DNA from: Halobiforma lacisalsi AJ5
Lineage (GTDB): Archaea > Halobacteriota > Halobacteria > Halobacteriales > Natrialbaceae
Reading direction: 5' to 3'
Length of the DNA stretch: 64,000 bases
NCBI RefSeq assembly: GCF_000226975.2
Contig: NZ_CP019285.1
Coordinates: 310,001 to 374,000 of the forward strand
Shown in pieces: positions 33,743 to 45,583 of the stretch (position 1 is the stretch's first letter; the number at the start of each line of letters is the position of its first letter). The position numbers and the translations under genes are program-made. The notes beneath the pieces are model-generated. The model worked only from the letters and a program-made list of their open reading frames with translations. It did no database searches and had not been told where the DNA came from.

Positions 33743-34426
33743 TTATCGACCGCCTCCGTCGTGGTCGAGAATCGCGTCGAGGAGTTTCGTCTGTGCCGCC
33801 GCGAGATGCTCCGTGAAGGTCGTGCCCGTGATCCCGAGTTCGTCGGCAACCTCGCCGGCGTTCGCCCGCTTCGGGTGTTCGAAGTACCCCATTCGGTGGG
33901 CCGTCTCGAGCACCTCGAGCTGGCGCGCGGTCAGCGTGCTCCGGTCGACGAACACCAGATTCTGTTCGCTGTGGTCCTGCTGGGACTGGAGCAGCCGCTG
34001 GACGTCGATGGTCGAACACTGCTGCTGGAGTTCGCCGATGATCGCCTGCAGCCCCTGCATGTCCGGGGCGTGAAACGTGATGTACAGCGACGACCCGTTC
34101 GCGCGCACGTCGACGACGGGACAGTCGAACCCCTCGACGATCTCGCAGGGACAGCCACGGCCGAGTTCGCGGCCGAAACGGTAGACGGAACTCGAGCCGT
34201 AGGAGAAAATCTCCGTCAGTTCGGGGTCGCCGTCATCCCTACGGTCCGGGGCGTCGCCCGGTTCCCCGGGCTCGAGCAGGAACTCCTCGGCGACGCGGTC
34301 GGGCGCGCCGGGATCGACGCTCTTCGAGACCGAGTGGACCGTCCCGCTCGTGTCCGCTGCGGCGTCGGCGACGGTGCAGGACGGCGGGTCGTCGATCCTG
34401 ATCTCGGCGCGGATTCCCGAGGTCAT
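33743..34426 (-). CDS. HTH_10 (Bat-like) transcription regulator
   Basis: The 227-residue protein starts MTSGIRAEIRIDDPPSCTVA and ends in an HTH_10 domain (LTARQLEVLETAHRMGYFEHPKRANAGEVADELGI, then TTFTEHLAAAQTKLLDA). The middle has cysteines (GCPCEIVEGFDCPVVD) that could bind metal or respond to redox. This small-sensor-plus-HTH_10 layout is common in haloarchaea. The frame extends upstream to 34573, but the ATG at 34426 fits the family's N-terminus. It is divergent from a winged-helix gene, with 212 bp between. Confidence 0.9.
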   Translation of the reverse strand: MTSGIRAEIRIDDPPSCTVADAAADTSGTVHSVSKSVDPGAPDRVAEEFLLEPGEPGDAPDRRDDGDPELTEIFSYGSSSVYRFGRELGRGCPCEIVEGFDCPVVDVRANGSSLYITFHAPDMQGLQAIIGELQQQCSTIDVQRLLQSQQDHSEQNLVFVDRSTLTARQLEVLETAHRMGYFEHPKRANAGEVADELGITGTTFTEHLAAAQTKLLDAILDHDGGGR

Positions 34427-34638
34427 GGTACGGCTATCGATGGGGGGCCCTCCTCCGTAAACCCTCTGTCCTCGGTGCCGTCGAATCGAGTGGTCCGGTC
34501 GCTCGACCCGTGGTATCGCATACCACAAATCGTGGGAGAGGAGCGCTGTCGCGGCCGATACTGGCAACCCCATATAAAGAGCCCTGTATTTATTGGGACT
34601 TATTTGGAGGGGGACTGGTGGATACTAGAGAGTGAACG

Positions 34639-35308: not shown

Positions 35309-37234
35309 TCAGTCGTCCGAGGGAGCCGCGGCGCCGCCTTCGCTACTGACGCCCGTGCCGGGGCCGACCTCGATCCCGAGTTCGTCGAGTTTCTCGTCGG
35401 GAACGACGCCGTCGACCCAGCCGCGGTAGTCGTAGTACTCCGCTTTCATCTCCTCGAGTTCGCAGTACTCGCCCTCGCTTGCACCCTGGCCGGGGATGCC
35501 GTCCTCGAGGAACCGCTCGGGCAACGAGTCGTCGGAGCCGTCGAACCCGTTGAGGTTGTTGTAGTACCGCTCGAGGTTGTAGACGCGTTCGCCGGCCTCC
35601 ATCAGTTCGTCCTCGGAGACGTCGCGACCGGTCATGCCGTTGTACTGCAGGACGTACTCCTCGATACCTTCTGCGAAGGCGTTGAACTTGCAGATGTCGA
35701 AGGAGTCGCTGATGGCGTGCAGATCCTGGAACTCCGCGGTGAGCTCGCCTTTGCCTTCCCACTCGTAGGGATCGACCTTCTCGGGAATGCCGAGGATTTC
35801 GGCGGCGGGCGTGTAGCCGCGCAGGTGACACGCGCCGCGGTTCGAGGTGGCGTAGCCGATCCCCATCCCCTTCATACAGCGTGGGTCGTAGGCCGCGATG
35901 GTCTGGCCTTTCACCGCCAGCGAGTTCTCCTGTGCGTCTCGGGCCTCGGCGACGCGGCTCGGCCCCTCGGCGAGAAGGTCCGCGAGTTCGCCCTCGTGGT
36001 AGGCGATCTTTTCGATGAGGTCGATCATCGTCTCGGTGTCGCCCCAGTCCAGGTCCGCCTCGAGTTTGCCTTCCTCGGCCATCTCCATGGCCATCGCCAT
36101 CATGTTGCCGGTGTCGATGGTGTCGACGCCCATGTCGTTACAGCGGTCGATCATCACGGCGACGTCGTCGCGTTCGGTGTTGCCGGAGTTCGGGCCGAGC
36201 GCGTACGCCGACTCGAACTCGTAGGACTCCATCCGGACGTTCATCTCCTCGCCTTTGTGCATCGCCTGGACTTCGACCTCCTTCTTGCAGGCGACGGGAC
36301 AGGAGTGACAGGTCGGCTCATCGACGAGGATGTTCTCCCGGACGTTCTCGCCGGAGACTTTCTCCGAGTCGAACTCCTCGCCCGCGAAGCCGTCCTCCCG
36401 GGCGTCCCGGGTCGAGGTGTACTTCCCGTTTCGCGTGGGCAGGCCGGACATCTCCTCGGTGATGTTCATCAGGACGTTCGTCCCGAACTGCGAGAGCCCG
36501 CCCTCGTTGGGCGCGGTGACGTCGGACTCCTGGATGGCCTGCATCGCCTGCTGGTGGCCCTCCTTGAACGTCTCGGGATCGGCCGGCTGGGGCATCTTCG
36601 TGCCGGATTTCACGACGATGGCCTTGAGGTTCTTCGACCCCATGACACAGCCCGTACCGCCGCGGCCCGAGGCACGGTCGTCCTCGTTGATGATACAGGC
36701 GTAGCGAACCTCGTTCTCCCCACCGGGGCCGATCCCCATGAAGCTCAGGTTCTTCCCGTATGACCCCTCGACCTCCTCCTCGAGGGCCTCTCGGGTCTGG
36801 TGGACGCCCTCGCCCCAGACGTGGGAGGCGTCCCGCAGTTCGACCTCGCCGTCCTCGACGACGGCGTAGACCGGGTCGTCGGCCTCGCCCTCGAACAGCA
36901 GACCGTCGAAGCCGGCCCACTTCAGGCGCGCGCCGGACCAGCCGCCGTGGTGGCTGTCGGTAACGGTGCCGGTCAGCGGCGACTTGGTACAGACCGCGAT
37001 CCGGCCGCTCATCGTCACTTGCGTGCCCGACAGCGGTCCGTTCATGAACGCAAGCAGGTTGTCGGGACCGAGCGGATCCACGTCCGGCCCCTGTTCGAAG
37101 ACGTACTTCACCCCCAGTCCGCGCGCCCCGATGTATTTCTTCGCGTCTTCCTCGTCTATCGACTCGTAGTCGACCGACCCCTCGGAGAGATCGACGCGGG
37201 CGACCCTGTCCTGGAAACCGCCGAGTTCTGTCAT
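35309..37234 (-). CDS. Aldehyde:ferredoxin oxidoreductase (tungsten AOR family)
   Basis: The 641-residue protein begins MTELGGFQDRVARVDLSEGSV and carries the AOR landmarks: GPLSGTQVTMSGRIAVCTKSP, GIGPGGENEVRYACIINEDDR-type cofactor segments, RGGTGCVMGSKNLKAIVV, and the 4Fe-4S cysteines in CHSCPVACKKEVEV plus the distal Cys in SFDICKF. These enzymes use tungsten bis-pyranopterin to oxidise aldehydes to acids with ferredoxin. All four expected cluster cysteines are visible. The gene is monocistronic, with an operator-like inverted repeat upstream. Confidence 0.93.
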   Translation of the reverse strand: MTELGGFQDRVARVDLSEGSVDYESIDEEDAKKYIGARGLGVKYVFEQGPDVDPLGPDNLLAFMNGPLSGTQVTMSGRIAVCTKSPLTGTVTDSHHGGWSGARLKWAGFDGLLFEGEADDPVYAVVEDGEVELRDASHVWGEGVHQTREALEEEVEGSYGKNLSFMGIGPGGENEVRYACIINEDDRASGRGGTGCVMGSKNLKAIVVKSGTKMPQPADPETFKEGHQQAMQAIQESDVTAPNEGGLSQFGTNVLMNITEEMSGLPTRNGKYTSTRDAREDGFAGEEFDSEKVSGENVRENILVDEPTCHSCPVACKKEVEVQAMHKGEEMNVRMESYEFESAYALGPNSGNTERDDVAVMIDRCNDMGVDTIDTGNMMAMAMEMAEEGKLEADLDWGDTETMIDLIEKIAYHEGELADLLAEGPSRVAEARDAQENSLAVKGQTIAAYDPRCMKGMGIGYATSNRGACHLRGYTPAAEILGIPEKVDPYEWEGKGELTAEFQDLHAISDSFDICKFNAFAEGIEEYVLQYNGMTGRDVSEDELMEAGERVYNLERYYNNLNGFDGSDDSLPERFLEDGIPGQGASEGEYCELEEMKAEYYDYRGWVDGVVPDEKLDELGIEVGPGTGVSSEGGAAAPSDD

Positions 37235-37290: not shown

Positions 37291-37308
37291 GTAACCGATG
37301 TTGGTTAC
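37291..37308. promoter_or_regulatory. Operator-like inverted repeat GTAACC-N6-GGTTAC
   Basis: GTAACC (37291-37296) and GGTTAC (37303-37308) are perfect inverted 6-bp arms separated by 6 bp, 57-74 bp upstream of the AOR start codon. The centre spacing of 12 bp is typical of dimeric HTH-regulator sites. Confidence 0.5.
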
Positions 37309-37497: not shown

Positions 37498-37683
37498 TCA
37501 CAGTAACAGCGCAACGATCGCGAGCACGATGAAGACGAGCACGAAGATCCGGGCGATCTCCATGGAGATTCCGGCGACCCCGCGCGCGCCGACTGCCGCC
37601 GCGACGATCGCGAGGACGAAGAACACGATCGCCCAGTAAAGGAACTCGCCGCCGGCCTGAAGCGGTAGTGCGTACTCGAGCAT
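37498..37683 (-). CDS. DUF1328 small membrane protein
   Basis: The 61-residue protein has two membrane helices (FLYWAIVFFVLAIVAAAVGARGVAG and ISMEIARIFVLVFIVLAIVALLL, in halves) joined by the RGVAGISMEIARI loop that is diagnostic of DUF1328. The start MLEYALPL at 37683 matches the family length. The role is unknown; members are often stress-related. Confidence 0.9.
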   Translation of the reverse strand: MLEYALPLQAGGEFLYWAIVFFVLAIVAAAVGARGVAGISMEIARIFVLVFIVLAIVALLL

Positions 37684-37774: not shown

Positions 37775-39661
37775 CTATTCTCCTTCAAAGAACGCCCTGC
37801 AAAGCTTCCCCTCCGCGGAGCGCAGGTGCTCGTGGAACGTCGGCCGGGAGACGTCCATCGAGTCGGCGAGTTCCTCGCCGGTCGTCGGCCGTGGCCACTC
37901 GAAGTAGCCGCCGAGGTACGCCCGCTGGAGCGCGACGAACTGCCGGTCCGTGAGGTCGCTCTCGAGGCGGGCGGCGAACTCCTGGCGGGTCTCGTCGTCC
38001 CGGTCGCGGTGGCGGAACGAGCGGACGTCGGTCCGGTCGTACCGCTCCTCGACCGCCTCGACGATCGAGCGGACGTTCGCGGACCGCGGGATCTCGAGGG
38101 TCAGGGTCGCGCGGCCGTCCTCGGCCTCGACCGATTTGGTGCGCACGCCGCGTTCCGAGAGCCAGCCGACCGGATCGTCGCCGCCGGTGAGTTCGACCAG
38201 ACAGCCGTCGTCACGTTCGACGACCACGTGACAGTCGAGATCTTCGTAGGCCGCGGCGGCGTCGACGAGCGCCGCGGGATCGCCCGTCGCGGAGAACATC
38301 GAGGCCGTCCCGTCGGCCCCCGAGCGGTGGACCGAACGGCGGTACTCGAGATGACAGTCCGCGTCGGCCGAGAGCGCGGCCGGGGCGACGGCGTCGTCTT
38401 CGATCTCGAGTTCGACCGCGACGACCGCGTCGGTCTCGAGGACGCGGCTGGTCTCGCGTGCGTTGACCCCGCTTGCGACCGCGCGGGCGAGCGCCGAGAG
38501 GATCACCGATTCCCGGTCGTCGACCTCTCGATCGCCCTCGATGCGCAGCGTCAGCACGCCGTACTCGATGTCGTTGTAGAACAGCGGGAACGCGGCCACC
38601 GTCGTCCCGTCGACGGTACCGACGGCGACGGCCTGGTTCGGGAGCGTCGCCGCGGCCGGGTGGTCGGCGTCGATCGGGATCGGTTCCGGATCGGAGTCGA
38701 TGCCCGCGCTCGTCCGAACCTCGATCGTTCCCGTCGCGGGGTTGCGCTCGCCGATCCAGGCCCCTTCGTAGGCCTCCTCCGAGGCGATCCGGTCACAGAC
38801 TGCCTCCTCGAGTTGCGCCCGGCCGGTCGAGCCGGCGACGGCGGCCGTGACGTCCTGGACGAGTCCCTCGACCCGGTCGAGGATGTACTCGAGTTCCTCG
38901 GTTCGGCGCTCGAGTGCGAGTTCGGCCTCCTTGCGCGCGGTGATGTCGTTCTGGAAGCCGACGTAGTTCGTGACCTCGCCGTCGTCGTTGCGGACGGGCG
39001 CGATGGTCACCTCGTTCCAGAACTCGGTGCCGTCCTTGCGGTAGTTCTTGATCTCGACGGTGACGGGATAGTCCTCGTCGACGGCCTTCGCCATCCGAGC
39101 GATCGCCTCCTCGCTCGAGTCTTCTCCCTGCAGGAGCCGGCAGTTGCGTCCGACGACGTCGTCGTAGCTGTAGCCGGTGATCTCCTGATACGCGTCGTTG
39201 ATGTAGACCAGCGGATTGTCCTCGCGGTCGGGGTCGGAGATCGAGATCCCGACCGGCGCCTCGTCGATCGCACGGTCTTTGATCACGCGATCGCTCACGG
39301 TCGACTCGACGTCGTCGCCCGGCCGGAACACGATCGTCGCCGCGTCCGCGTCGCGGTGGACTCGCGCGACGTACCCTTCCACCTCGAGGTCGACCCGCCG
39401 TGCGGCCCCGACGGTCGTCTCGTTGATCGCCTCCTCGAGTCGGTCCCACTCCTCGAGGACGGAATCCGGGTCCGTTTCGGCGACGCCCTCGTTCTCGAGG
39501 TCGGTCTCGGGGATTCCGAACACCCGTCGGGCGGCACCGTTCGCGTAGCTGATCCGGCCGTCAGCGACGGCTACGACGGGATCGACGACGTGGTCGAGCG
39601 CAGCCGCCGCGGGCGAACGACTGGGCTCGCCCGCGCCGGGCTCCGCGTCGGCATTACTCAT
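37775..39661 (-). CDS. LOV-GAF-HTH_10 transcription regulator (candidate blue-light sensor)
   Basis: The 628-residue protein has an N-terminal PAS domain (about 20-115), a LOV-type PAS domain (about 130-250), a GAF domain (about 275-415), a Bat-associated region and an HTH_10 DNA-binding domain (about 565-620: LTDRQFVALQRAYLGGYFEWPRPTTGEELADS). The LOV domain carries VVGRNCRLLQGEDSS, the canonical motif with the photoactive cysteine (Cys174), as well as INDAYQEITGYS and NDDGEVTNYVGFQNDIT. These residues bind FMN and form a light-driven cysteinyl adduct in known LOV proteins. A light-regulated transcription factor is therefore likely. The ATG at 39661 is supported by the SNADAEPGAGE start. Confidence 0.92.
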   Translation of the reverse strand: MSNADAEPGAGEPSRSPAAAALDHVVDPVVAVADGRISYANGAARRVFGIPETDLENEGVAETDPDSVLEEWDRLEEAINETTVGAARRVDLEVEGYVARVHRDADAATIVFRPGDDVESTVSDRVIKDRAIDEAPVGISISDPDREDNPLVYINDAYQEITGYSYDDVVGRNCRLLQGEDSSEEAIARMAKAVDEDYPVTVEIKNYRKDGTEFWNEVTIAPVRNDDGEVTNYVGFQNDITARKEAELALERRTEELEYILDRVEGLVQDVTAAVAGSTGRAQLEEAVCDRIASEEAYEGAWIGERNPATGTIEVRTSAGIDSDPEPIPIDADHPAAATLPNQAVAVGTVDGTTVAAFPLFYNDIEYGVLTLRIEGDREVDDRESVILSALARAVASGVNARETSRVLETDAVVAVELEIEDDAVAPAALSADADCHLEYRRSVHRSGADGTASMFSATGDPAALVDAAAAYEDLDCHVVVERDDGCLVELTGGDDPVGWLSERGVRTKSVEAEDGRATLTLEIPRSANVRSIVEAVEERYDRTDVRSFRHRDRDDETRQEFAARLESDLTDRQFVALQRAYLGGYFEWPRPTTGEELADSMDVSRPTFHEHLRSAEGKLCRAFFEGE

Positions 39662-39756
39662 ATGCCTCCATAGGTAGGGAAGCTTCAAGAACCATTGGGG
39701 TCCCGGCTTGCTCCGGCACCCTGAACGTTATTACCTCGCGCGTCATACGGTAACAT

Positions 39757-39945
39757 ATGTCAGCATACCGATCACCCTTCGACCGGCTCCGCCAGAAGTT
39801 CGAGGAGTCGACCGTCGAGTGCGGGCACTGTGGCTACCGCGACACGGAGGCCGGATGGCGAGTGACGGCGACGGGGAGTCGTGTCCAGTACCAGTTCGTC
39901 TGTCCGTCCTGTGACGGCGTCGAGACACGGGAGATGCGGCTGTAA
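39757..39945 (+). CDS. HVO_0649-like zinc-finger protein
   Basis: The 62-residue protein MSAYRSPFDRLRQKFEE has a four-cysteine zinc ribbon: CGHCGYRD, about 20 residues, CPSCDG. It resembles a conserved haloarchaeal family named after HVO_0649 (recalled from memory). Its partners are unknown. Confidence 0.85.
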   Translation: MSAYRSPFDRLRQKFEESTVECGHCGYRDTEAGWRVTATGSRVQYQFVCPSCDGVETREMRL

Positions 39946-41234: not shown

Positions 41235-44200
41235 CTACGCCCCGGGGTCGGTCTCCGGTTCCCAGTCACGACCTCGACGCCGACCCCGGTCTCGCTCTCC
41301 GTTTCCGTCCCCGCCGTCCCCGTCGAACTCCGCCCGCGGCAACTCGATCGTCACTACTGCCCCCCGCGAGCCGTTCTCCGAAAACGAGAGTCGACCGCCC
41401 GAGTGGGTGACCACCCAGTTGACGAGCCACAGCCCCAGGCCGCTCGCGTGGCGCAACTGCGTGATCTCGCGGTCCTCCTGCAGGAGTTCGCGTTCCTCGA
41501 CCGGGATACCCGGCCCATCGTCGGCGACCGAGACCCGGACCATCCCGTCCTCAGCCGCGTCCGCGACGGTCACCTCGATCGACGGCTGCGGGGTGTCGTT
41601 GTGCTCGACCGCGTTCTCGAGCACCTGGAACAGCGCCGTCTCGAGGAACTCGGTCCCCCTGGCTGTACAGTCGTCGGGAACCGAGGTCGTCACCTCGGCG
41701 TGGGGGTACTCCCGCTCGAGTCGCGCGACCGCGTCGGACACCAGCGCACCGGGATCGATCCGACTGGTCGCCGAATCGCCGCGCTCGAGGGTGCGTTCGA
41801 CTCCGCGGGTCTTCTCCGCGAGTTCGATGAGTTCGTTCGCTCGTTCCTGGATCGCCCGGGCGTGTTCGCACCCGTCGACGTCGATTTCGACCTCGGGGTC
41901 GTTCTCGAGAGACCGGAGTTCCTCGAGAAGCAGTTGCGCACAGCCATCGATGATGTTCATCCCGTTGCGCAGGTCGTGACGCAACACCCGGTTGAGGATC
42001 TCGACGCGCTTGCGGTGCTGTTTTCGCTCGGTGATATCGGTATAGACGCCGAAGGTTCGCTCGGAGTAGCCGTCGGTCTCCATCGGGGCCAGCCGGAGCA
42101 TGAAATCGCGTAGCCCGTCGGTCGTCCGGCGTTTGACCTCCATCTCGACGGTGTCGCCCTGGCTGCCGGTCCGGTTGATGCGTTCGGCTTCGTCCCCGCG
42201 GTCGGAGGGGACGATATAGTCGTCGATGGATTCGCCGATCAACTCGGACTCCTCGTAGCCGAAGACACGTTCGAACGCCGGGTTGACGGCCTCGACGATC
42301 GGCTGGGCCCCCTCGTCGACGTATCGCGAACTGACGACGGCGTCCGGGACGTTCTCGAAAAGCGCCGCGAAGCGGTCGCGCTCGGTGCGCAACTCCGCCT
42401 CGAAGGCCAGCCGCTCGAGCGCATCGGAGACGTGTGACAGCAGGAGCTCGGCGAGTTCCTTGTCGTCGTCGTCGAACGCGTCGTACTCCGTGGATGCGGC
42501 CTGGAACACCCCTCGATCGCCGATGGGAACGCTCAGGGCCGACCGGAACCGCTCCGTCGCCGGGCGAGCGTCGTCCCGCTCGCCGACGTCCTCGATGCGG
42601 TAGGTCTGTTCGTTTCGATACGTCTTGCCGGCGATCCCCCGATCGAGCGGGATGCGCCGTTCGTACTGGTCGTCGAACGCCGAGGAGAGTGCCCGCTTGA
42701 CCAGCGAGTCGTCGTCCTCGTCGGCGAGATAGACCGCGCAGGCGTCGAAGTTCAGCACGTCCTCGGCGGCTTCGACGGCGAGTTCGCAGACCTCGTCCCC
42801 GTCGTCACAGTCGTCGAGACGGGACGCGATCGCGTGAAGGCTCTCGATCTTCGCTTTCTGCTCGATGATCTCCCGTTGCATTCGTTTGCGGTCGGTGACG
42901 TCGCGAACGATGCCGACGGTTCCCGTTCGGTCCGTGGCTGCCGACCGAACGGAATCGTCCGTCCCGTCGTCTCTCTCCGGTCGCCACAACGTCGTATTGA
43001 TCTCGCAGGGTACCGTCCCCCCGTCGTTCGCCTCGAGAGTCGCCTCGTAGGTCGCGATGCCGCCCTCGCCGACCGACGAGAGCGCGCGGACGCGCTTGCG
43101 CCGGCGGGCGTCGCTTTCGTCGGTGAGGATCGTCGAGACGTGGCTTCCGAGGAGGTCGTCCCGGTCGTACCCCGTCACTGCAGCTAACCGATCGTTGACC
43201 GTTACGAACCGGCCGTCGGCGTCGAGCGCGTAGACCCCGTCGCCGACGGCTTCCACGATCGTCTCGGTCCGTGCGAGTTCCCGGGTCCGAACCGTCCGGT
43301 CGAGCGCTGCCTCGACCGTCGCCGCCAGGACTCGCACGAGGTGGATATCCGTGGGATCGAGACGATCCTCTCCCGAGGACGCGATGGTCAGCAGGCCATG
43401 CTCCCCGACGGGATGCAAGATCGCGTTCCCCAGCGAGACGTCGGCATCCGGTTCGAACTCGACCGGGGTTTCGTCGCTCGAGACGTCCGTAAGAACGATC
43501 GACTCCCCGTCGGCGTAGGCCGTCCAGAACTCGGAGTCGCCGGGTTCGACCGGCGGGACGTCGGCCGCGACGGCCGCGAGTTCCGAGGTAGCGCCCTCGA
43601 GTTCGAGGTGCCCGGCCTCCTCGTCGTAGAGGTAGATCGTCCCGAGGGGCTGTTCGAGGACCGTTTCGGTCGCGTCCATCACGATCTCCGCGATTCGTTC
43701 GGCGGATTCGGCCCGGATGAGTTCGTGGGAGGTCACCTGGAGCGCCTCGAGGGCGTTCGCTCGCTTGTGTTCTTCCGAGACGTCGCGAGCATACGAGAGA
43801 ACGCCGACGATCTCGTCGCCGTCGAAAATGGGGGTGTTAACCCACTCACAGACGATGGTCGAGCCGTCCGCACAGACGTTCCGATTGATCTGCGTGGAAG
43901 GGCCGCGGCCGTACTGGCAGTCGATAAGTTCGGACCAGTACTCGCGGGCGATGTCGCGTTCGGACTCCGGGATCAGTAACTCGAAGGCGGAGGTCCCGAG
44001 CGCCTCTTCCGCGCTGTAGCCGAACAGACCCGTCGCGGTGGCGCTCCAGCCGACCGCCTCGAACTCGCGGTTCCACTCGACGACGGCGAGGGGAATCCCC
44101 TCGAAGAACCTGTCGAGAGCTTCGTCGACGCGGACCGAGTCGGTACCGTCGTCCGTCGAGGAGGACGAGGAGGACGAGGAGGACGAAGAAGACGAGGAAG

Positions 44201-44753
44201 ACGAAGAGGAGTCCGACCGTTCGTCCGCGCCGCCGACGTAGTCCGGATCGAGAGCCATCGCGGACTCGAGGGTCTCGATCGTGTTAATTGCGGTGACGGG
44301 CGGGTCCTCGGTTCCGTTGCGTTCCGGGTTCGGGTCACGCGTTTCCGGGGCGTCACCGTCCGCGGACGAGCCCGGTTCCGAGGAAGCTAGCTCGCGGATC
44401 CGCCTCGAGAGGGTGTCCAGACCCTGCGAGCGCGGAACGTAGCCGTCGACCCCCGCGGCGACGAGTTCGCCCGCGAGGGCTTCGCTCCCGTCGGCCGGGA
44501 AGGCGACGATCGGAACGTCCGGCCGCCGGTCGTGGATCTGTTCACAGAGATCCACGGGATCGGTCTCCGGGAGGTCAGCGACGACTACGCAGTCTGCACT
44601 CGGGAGAGCCTCCAGGCAGTCCCGAACGCCGTCGACGACTGTCGTGACGGCACCGTCGATAGTGCCGGTGTCGTCCGTTCCGTCGTCGGGCGGAGACTCG
44701 AGTCCCTCCGGTGGTGTATCGTCGGCGAAGACGACGCGGGTTCGACCAGTCAT
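41235..44753 (-). CDS. Receiver-like/PAS/GAF sensor histidine kinase with polyserine linker
   Basis: This 1172-residue kinase starts at ATG 44753. Its N-terminal 125 residues look like a degenerate receiver (CVVVADLPETDPVDLCEQI, VPIVAFPADGSEALAGELVAAGVDGYVPR). A linker contains 18 consecutive serines (residues 182-199). Then come PAS (about 210-330), GAF (about 340-500), PAS (about 515-650), GAF (about 655-800), PAS (about 805-925), a HisKA region with phospho-acceptor His in NRVLRHDLRNGMNII, and HATPase_c (VLENAVEHND, DDGPGIP, GLGLWLVNWVV). No membrane helix was seen. No response regulator is adjacent; the receiver-like domain may receive or modulate signals. Confidence 0.9.
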   Translation of the reverse strand: MTGRTRVVFADDTPPEGLESPPDDGTDDTGTIDGAVTTVVDGVRDCLEALPSADCVVVADLPETDPVDLCEQIHDRRPDVPIVAFPADGSEALAGELVAAGVDGYVPRSQGLDTLSRRIRELASSEPGSSADGDAPETRDPNPERNGTEDPPVTAINTIETLESAMALDPDYVGGADERSDSSSSSSSSSSSSSSSSSSTDDGTDSVRVDEALDRFFEGIPLAVVEWNREFEAVGWSATATGLFGYSAEEALGTSAFELLIPESERDIAREYWSELIDCQYGRGPSTQINRNVCADGSTIVCEWVNTPIFDGDEIVGVLSYARDVSEEHKRANALEALQVTSHELIRAESAERIAEIVMDATETVLEQPLGTIYLYDEEAGHLELEGATSELAAVAADVPPVEPGDSEFWTAYADGESIVLTDVSSDETPVEFEPDADVSLGNAILHPVGEHGLLTIASSGEDRLDPTDIHLVRVLAATVEAALDRTVRTRELARTETIVEAVGDGVYALDADGRFVTVNDRLAAVTGYDRDDLLGSHVSTILTDESDARRRKRVRALSSVGEGGIATYEATLEANDGGTVPCEINTTLWRPERDDGTDDSVRSAATDRTGTVGIVRDVTDRKRMQREIIEQKAKIESLHAIASRLDDCDDGDEVCELAVEAAEDVLNFDACAVYLADEDDDSLVKRALSSAFDDQYERRIPLDRGIAGKTYRNEQTYRIEDVGERDDARPATERFRSALSVPIGDRGVFQAASTEYDAFDDDDKELAELLLSHVSDALERLAFEAELRTERDRFAALFENVPDAVVSSRYVDEGAQPIVEAVNPAFERVFGYEESELIGESIDDYIVPSDRGDEAERINRTGSQGDTVEMEVKRRTTDGLRDFMLRLAPMETDGYSERTFGVYTDITERKQHRKRVEILNRVLRHDLRNGMNIIDGCAQLLLEELRSLENDPEVEIDVDGCEHARAIQERANELIELAEKTRGVERTLERGDSATSRIDPGALVSDAVARLEREYPHAEVTTSVPDDCTARGTEFLETALFQVLENAVEHNDTPQPSIEVTVADAAEDGMVRVSVADDGPGIPVEERELLQEDREITQLRHASGLGLWLVNWVVTHSGGRLSFSENGSRGAVVTIELPRAEFDGDGGDGNGERDRGRRRGRDWEPETDPGA

Positions 44754-44899
44754 CGTCTGTATCGGAGCCGTTGGGTCTATTGAGCCGATTATGCGACGGA
44801 CGTGCAATGCACGCTCGGAGGCGTTGCGGCGTCGTTTACTTCGGTCGGTGTCGACTCGGAAGGAATATAAGTGTACCGGCCGTCCTCCGCCGGCCTCGG

Positions 44900-45583
44900 C
44901 TACTCGAACGCCCGGAGAACCCCCTGTCCGTCCGTGGGACCCACGTCCGGCAGCGTCGCGCGTTCCGGATGGGGCATCAGGACGGCGACGGTGTCTCGAT
45001 CGCCGAGCACGCCCGCGACGTCGTGTTTCGACCCGTTCGGGTTCGCGTGCGGTCCGACCTCGCCGTACTCGTCGCAGTACCGGAAGAGGACTCGGTCCTC
45101 GGCTTCGAGTGCCGCCAGCCGGTCGTCGGCGATCTCGTAGCGGCCCTCGCCGTGGGCGATCGGTACCTCGATGACCTCGCCTTCCTCGTAGGCGGCGGTC
45201 CAGGGGGTGTCGGCCCGTTCGACCCGCAGGTGGACGTGCTCGCACTGGAAGCGGGCACTCTCGTTCGTCGTGAACGCCCCCGGCGTCAGGCCGGACTCAC
45301 AGCCGATCTGGGCTCCGTTACAGACGCCCAGGACCGGGACCCCGTCGCTCGCGGCCTCGCGGACCTCTTCCATGATCGGTGCGCGGGCGGCCATCGCGCC
45401 GGCCCTGAGGTAGTCGCCGTAGGAGAACCCGCCCGGGAGGACGATTCCGTCGGTATCGGCGGGGAGGCCGTCCTCGTGCCAGACGATTTCGGCGTCGATC
45501 CCGAGGTGCTCGAGGGCGCGTTTCGCGTCGCGGTCGCAGTTCGAACCGCCGAAGCGGACGATCGAAACCGTCACAGTCGCCAC
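44900..45583 (-). CDS. purQ: Phosphoribosylformylglycinamidine synthase, glutaminase subunit
   Basis: PurQ supplies ammonia from glutamine to PurL in step four of purine synthesis. The 227-residue protein shows SIVRFGGSNCDRDAKRAL, LPGGFSYGDYLRAGAMAA, the nucleophile Cys in LGVCNGAQIG and the catalytic His/Glu in LMPHPERA. It starts at a GTG (45581-45583); a second GTG three codons later is possible. purS lies 56 bp upstream in the same direction, forming the usual purS-purQ unit. Confidence 0.96.
   Translation of the reverse strand: MATVTVSIVRFGGSNCDRDAKRALEHLGIDAEIVWHEDGLPADTDGIVLPGGFSYGDYLRAGAMAARAPIMEEVREAASDGVPVLGVCNGAQIGCESGLTPGAFTTNESARFQCEHVHLRVERADTPWTAAYEEGEVIEVPIAHGEGRYEIADDRLAALEAEDRVLFRYCDEYGEVGPHANPNGSKHDVAGVLGDRDTVAVLMPHPERATLPDVGPTDGQGVLRAFE

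Follow-up and report, generated by a model that had tools for sequence, protein, structure and literature searches.

To our knowledge, the light biology of haloarchaea is known almost wholly through rhodopsins. The bacterial LOV-HTH regulator EL222 uses an HTH domain of another family and is not known to contain a GAF or a BAT domain, and YtvA, which provides the closest solved structure to the LOV domain described here, is not known to have a DNA-binding domain. Archaeal LOV proteins were catalogued by Losi, Mandalari and Gaertner in 2014 (PMC4844311), whose text, in its accessible part, counts 167 of them, reports an HTH domain in 30% of the halobacterial ones, with the architecture (RR/GAF/PAS)+LOV+nPAS+kGAF+HTH, and states that none had been studied by then; the outline of EL222, with light acting through LOV on the HTH domain, is the same as that proposed here (PMC4844311, same part). 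The protein analysed in this study, with its PAS, LOV, GAF-like and HTH domains, fits this archaeal architecture and shares kingdom, class and the canonical cysteine with the catalogued proteins, no essential difference being apparent from the accessible part of the catalogue; the LOV-HTH_10 type is thus already in print and our protein is another member of that kind.

Among characterised haloarchaeal proteins, BAT-LOV* of Halorubrum, which lacks the cysteine, binds flavin and responds to reduction according to the available portion of the report (Yee 2015; PMC4682037). It resembles our protein in combining a LOV-type PAS, a GAF or GAF-like and an HTH domain in a single chain, but has proline in place of the cysteine together with a receiver domain, whereas our protein has the cysteine and an N-terminal PAS domain; furthermore, Bat regulates bop, whereas our gene has no adjacent opsin gene. 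ALovD-1 of Halonotius, described in the accessible text of Valle 2025 (PMC12202551) as a canonical LOV domain with a photocycle at up to 3 M salt, is likewise haloarchaeal and carries GXNCRxLQ, but it derives from a histidine kinase and its photocycle has been demonstrated, whereas our LOV domain belongs to an HTH_10 protein. No experimental study of a cysteine-bearing LOV-HTH_10 protein was found in the open-licence literature. The preliminary description had pointed to such a protein in a group better known for its rhodopsins, and this novelty is weaker than implied, the surprise being reduced by the 2014 catalogue of haloarchaeal LOV-HTH proteins (PMC4844311, in its accessible part) and by a second, 1462-aa HTH_10 protein with GxNCRxLQ in the same genome.

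The DNA analysed (the window) is a stretch of 64,000 nucleotides from Halobiforma lacisalsi AJ5, in which the LOV-Bat gene is real and intact and had correctly been placed at 37775-39661 (Table 1). Automatic annotation starts the open reading frame at TTG 39688, whereas ATG 39661 is the likelier start because it is preceded by GGAGG, and yields the protein of 628 aa. The preliminary description was right in naming a LOV domain and a terminal HTH_10 domain, the latter matching at residues 570-621 with 67.8 bits against a cut-off of 23.1, but it left out the N-terminal PAS, GAF-like and BAT domains. The BAT match (137.4 bits) is also above its cut-off and directly precedes HTH_10 in the Pfam results, and strong Pfam PAS matches cover the LOV region at about 129-245. 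The N-terminal PAS domain is matched by Pfam at residues 20-75 and extends over 17-114 in the AlphaFold2 (AF2) model, and for residues 281-407 a Pfam GAF match is absent in our protein, GAF_2 being found there in relatives and a GAF-like order of strands and helices being recognised by eye in the model. This model was built from 34 sequences, and its mean pLDDT of 77 and pTM of 0.38 make the arrangement of domains unreliable, with pLDDT values of about 82-91 over most of the LOV domain; the limits taken from it (LOV 122-239, BAT 411-552, HTH 559-625) are readings of secondary structure.

Table 1. Features of the LOV-Bat locus, in window coordinates
Feature	Position	Strand	Details
LOV-Bat regulator gene	37775..39661	(-)	628 aa, order PAS, LOV, GAF-like, BAT, HTH_10
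N-terminal PAS domain	39320..39613	(-)	aa 17-114; PF13188, AF2 model
LOV core	38942..39283	(-)	aa 127-240, includes Asn206, Asn216, Gln237
Codon of putative adduct-forming Cys174 in GRNCRLLQ	39140..39142	(-)	
Long helix after LOV	38831..38941	(-)	aa 241-277; AF2 secondary structure
GAF-like domain	38441..38821	(-)	aa 281-407; AF2 secondary structure, GAF_2 in relatives
BAT domain PF15915	37973..38431	(-)	aa 411-563
HTH_10 DNA-binding domain PF04967	37799..37954	(-)	aa 570-621
Divergent promoter region, LOV gene / zinc-finger gene	39662..39756	.	TATA-like elements, weak inverted repeat
HVO_0649-family zinc-finger microprotein, divergent partner	39757..39945	(+)	62 aa; NF041911 101.8 bits, cut-off 70
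DUF1328 small hydrophobic protein	37498..37683	(-)	61 aa; PF07043 E 6e-11
Conserved palindrome GTAACY-N6-RGTTAC	37291..37308	.	about -74 of AOR start
Aldehyde:ferredoxin oxidoreductase (AOR) gene, downstream	35309..37234	(-)	PF01314/PF02730, synteny

The photoreceptor positions Cys174, Asn206, Asn216 and Gln237, defined by alignment to YtvA, are all present, and the motif GRNCRLLQ with its flanking LOV residues, reported earlier, was found at residues 171-178 (window 39128-39151) within a YtvA-like LOV match and is not a chance occurrence. In a sequence comparison with PDB, LOV photoreceptors make up most of the best hits; chain 2mwg of Bacillus subtilis YtvA leads the ranking (E 1.7e-32), and numerous further LOV chains of blue-light receptors come after it. 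Among NCBIfam models the middle domain is nearest to the LOV part of the YtvA family and to other blue-light receptors, the match to the LOV part of YtvA_fam reaching E 8e-46 but staying, like the matches to the other receptor families, under the whole-protein cut-off, as expected since the rest of our protein has another architecture. The predicted fold is also that of solved LOV domains, Foldseek giving TM scores of 0.87-0.93 (of target) for 9vf7, 0.89 for 2pr5_A and 0.90 for 3t50, with superpositions at 1.3 A for 9vf7_D (TM 0.93 of target) and 0.8 A for 3t50_A (0.90).

Orthologs were sought in 37 genomes of the same family, including the own genome, and were found in 29, the exceptions being G010, G013, G015, G016, G025, G029, G034 (53% complete) and G035 (8/37). 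The 28 other orthologs, one of which (in G007) is cut at the contig start, are 56-98% identical to our protein, the closest belonging to Halobiforma haloterrestris (98%). Cys174, Asn206, Asn216 and Gln237 are unchanged in 28/28, and GxNCRxLQ and the N, N and Q residues are also kept in all 36 aligned sequences scoring above 300 bits. Only Cys174 and Cys621 out of six cysteines are invariant in these orthologs, the other four being kept in 27, 21, 12 and 19 of them; the segment of the recognition helix (VSRPTFHEHLR in our protein) is almost invariant, and the N-terminal PAS domain is weakly conserved, with a mean identity to our protein of about 0.3-0.66 per block of 20 aa. In a second set of 26 named loci (L102-L127), which partly overlaps the first and covers Halobiforma, Halopiger, Natrinema, Natronorubrum, Halostagnicola, Natronococcus, Haloterrigena and other genera, the LOV cysteine is present in 26/26. 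The orthologs form a clade with 100/100 support.

Judged by sequence and fold comparison, the protein very probably binds flavin and acts as a one-component regulator that responds to blue light. The YtvA alignment, the invariant pocket residues, the LOV fold match, the HTH_10 and BAT matches above cut-offs and the fully supported ortholog clade together favour a haloarchaeal Bat-family one-component transcription factor with a canonical LOV sensor, which is likely to be switched by light through a Cys174-flavin adduct. The earlier designation as a candidate blue-light-dependent transcription factor is therefore the best reading, given LOV signature residues invariant in all orthologs and a bona fide C-terminal HTH_10 domain. 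In the proposed mechanism, which draws on knowledge of the LOV family, FMN (or FAD) would be seated in the LOV pocket, blue light would produce a C4a adduct between Cys174 and the flavin, and Gln237 would sense the protonation of N5; the signal might then pass through the long helix at residues 241-277, a putative signalling or coiled-coil linker in the model, to the GAF-like and BAT domains, with an effect on DNA binding by the C-terminal HTH_10 domain. Control would be local, and our guess, made from adjacency alone, is that the likeliest targets are the LOV-Bat promoter itself and/or the divergent zinc-finger gene. For studies of how archaeal transcription might be controlled by light through a flavin, the orthologs provide a precisely defined and strictly conserved system, in which the promoter region is fixed and a likely partner gene can be assayed as well.

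This partner, the zinc-finger gene, is divergent from the LOV gene at a distance of about 95 bp in the window and lies adjacent upstream in 27/28 other orthologous loci, the remaining one (L071) ending at a contig edge; among the 26 named loci the two genes adjoin in 25, the exception again being cut off. Downstream of the LOV gene and on the same strand follow DUF1328 (in the window) and then AOR, the latter in 21/28 orthologous loci, and less constant neighbours are RaSEA (18/28) and PurQ (16/28), both counted within about 8 kb at set identity and coverage cut-offs. This study adds the constant divergent pairing of LOV-Bat and HVO_0649-family genes, with AOR downstream in most orthologous loci; no mention of the LOV-zinc-finger pairing was found in the literature examined, including the accessible part of Losi, Mandalari and Gaertner 2014 (PMC4844311). 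The pairing recalls Bat and Brz of Halobacterium, the latter a small zinc-finger protein, which both regulate bop according to the available excerpts (PMC3184054; PMC6562870). Since deletion of HVO_0649 in Haloferax volcanii causes a swarming defect (PMC6562870, in the excerpt available), motility is a target worth considering. That LOV-Bat and the microprotein form a conserved blue-light module of this family, acting with or without rhodopsins on motility and not on rhodopsin synthesis, is a tentative proposal that we regard as unlikely. Two further genes of the window are syntenic in fewer loci, namely a DmsR-type HTH_10 regulator at 33743-34573 (-), found in 11/28, and a large PAS/GAF histidine kinase at 41235-45245 (-), adjoining RaSEA and kept in 8/28 at the cut-offs used.

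In three genomes (G016, G025 and G035) the LOV gene alone is missing, with the zinc-finger gene, a DUF1328-type ORF (by eye) and AOR still adjoining, and the LOV-Bat gene is therefore dispensable there. Conversely, the LOV gene persists in G011, G028 and G030, from which an AOR match at E<=1e-50 is absent; from both kinds of genomes it follows that no neighbour depends strictly on the LOV gene. The latter genomes bear on a different reading, in which the protein is mainly a Bat-type redox or oxygen sensor whose flavin is chemically reduced, the photochemistry of the cysteine being incidental or only modulating. It is favoured by the description of Bat as a redox-sensing regulator (PMC4844311, accessible part), by the conformational change of the cysteine-less BAT-LOV* upon flavin reduction (PMC4682037, available portion) and by the adjoining AOR, a ferredoxin-linked enzyme by family, but AOR linkage is evidently not obligate, Cys174 is invariant among the orthologs and the LOV versions with proline fall into a separate clade, all of which makes this reading improbable. 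Because a Bat LOV domain without cysteine binds flavin and responds to reduction, as stated in the available portion of PMC4682037, light may nevertheless be neither the sole nor the main input to the LOV-Bat regulator.

A dedicated role in regulating the downstream DUF1328-AOR genes through GTAACY-N6-RGTTAC appears slightly less probable again. Same-strand AOR genes are frequent downstream, as described above, and the palindrome lies at a fixed -74 or -75 from AOR with at most two mismatches out of 10 in 22/22 adjacent loci, window included, but it also occurs at about -71 to -75 in 15/19 non-adjacent AOR copies, including 4/4 LOV-less family genomes with a close AOR (G016, G025, G029 and G035). 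Of its three exact sites in the own genome, one precedes AOR and the others a TFB-like and a glutaredoxin-like gene (both named by sight), which suggests that another factor reads it. Retention of the palindrome in LOV-less genomes led us to reject it as the site of the LOV-Bat protein, and its presence there and at non-adjacent AOR copies makes another regulator the most likely reader.

Tyr233 apparently occupies a position (mapped by eye) where characterised LOV domains have phenylalanine, is probably close to the flavin and is present in 24/28 orthologs. Aromatic residues of this sort can quench the photochemistry of flavins. Although aromatic quenching has been observed in BAT-LOV* (PMC4682037, available portion), a LOV domain that is photochemically dead despite its motif, through lack of flavin loading or immediate quenching, is very improbable, since all tested pocket residues are strictly conserved and an archaeal LOV domain whose motif is of the same type is photoactive (PMC12202551, accessible text).

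As to operators of the regulator, which is probably light-switched, the TATA-like GTTATTA and the start region of the zinc-finger promoter were rejected, since both are recognisable by eye in the three LOV-less genomes in which this promoter was inspected and thus look like ordinary promoter parts. An inverted repeat just 5' of the LOV ATG has a mean of 4.71 paired positions out of 6 over 28 loci, compared with 4.02 in shuffled sequences (0/300 shuffles as high), in a control that ignores kinship, with several locus starts set at the nearest ATG and the repeat overlapping the ribosome-binding site. A stricter motif gave no exact match anywhere in the own genome, the imperfect copy at the LOV gene also failing to match, and this weak repeat is a candidate operator only; among the promoter elements examined no operator specific to the LOV-Bat protein was identified.

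The LOV-Bat gene is not linked to a bacterio-opsin gene, the nearest opsin match in the own genome (C1:393250) being about 44 kb away, and BLASTP found no opsin in the window or around the 28 other orthologs (loci of about 18 kb each, one of 9.5 kb). A rhodopsin match is absent from 8/29 genomes with the LOV gene, in which the LOV-Bat protein might be a main light sensor, and from 0/8 LOV-less family genomes, numbers too small for claiming a link. More distant LOV-Bat relatives (about 37-46% identity), a non-random pick among the best matches of the family-genome search, are encoded next to opsin genes or not far from them in several genomes. Five that adjoin opsin genes (L077, L181, L182, L186 and L074) keep the cysteine and lie about 45-246 bp upstream on the same strand, and four near opsin genes (L185, L187, L188 and L189), at spacings from about 0.1 to 5.4 kb, have proline instead. 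Pfam analysis of L077, L181, L182 and L186 (Cys) and L188 (Pro) found PAS at the LOV place, GAF_2, BAT and HTH_10 in 5/5 and a receiver domain in 4/5, that of L077 being under the cut-off. The four proline relatives form one clade (100/99), which opsin-near L192 joins at 100/98, separate from the clade of our orthologs; the long branches of L082, L204, L192 and L190 leave parts of the tree unsure. The natural difference between cysteine and proline relatives near opsins would allow light sensing to be compared with redox sensing where the surrounding genes are similar.

Elsewhere in the own genome, a pair of adjoining opsin genes (C1:1533851-1534510 and 1535751-1536410), whose scores are identical, apparently represents a recent tandem duplication. 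The 1462-aa HTH_10 protein mentioned above is encoded within C1:1085000-1097000 (L075, 4751-9139) and contains GRNCRFLQ, several PAS domains, GAF, BAT and HTH_10. In total, the 4.4 Mb genome has 56 HTH_10 matches, 55 of them above the cut-off.
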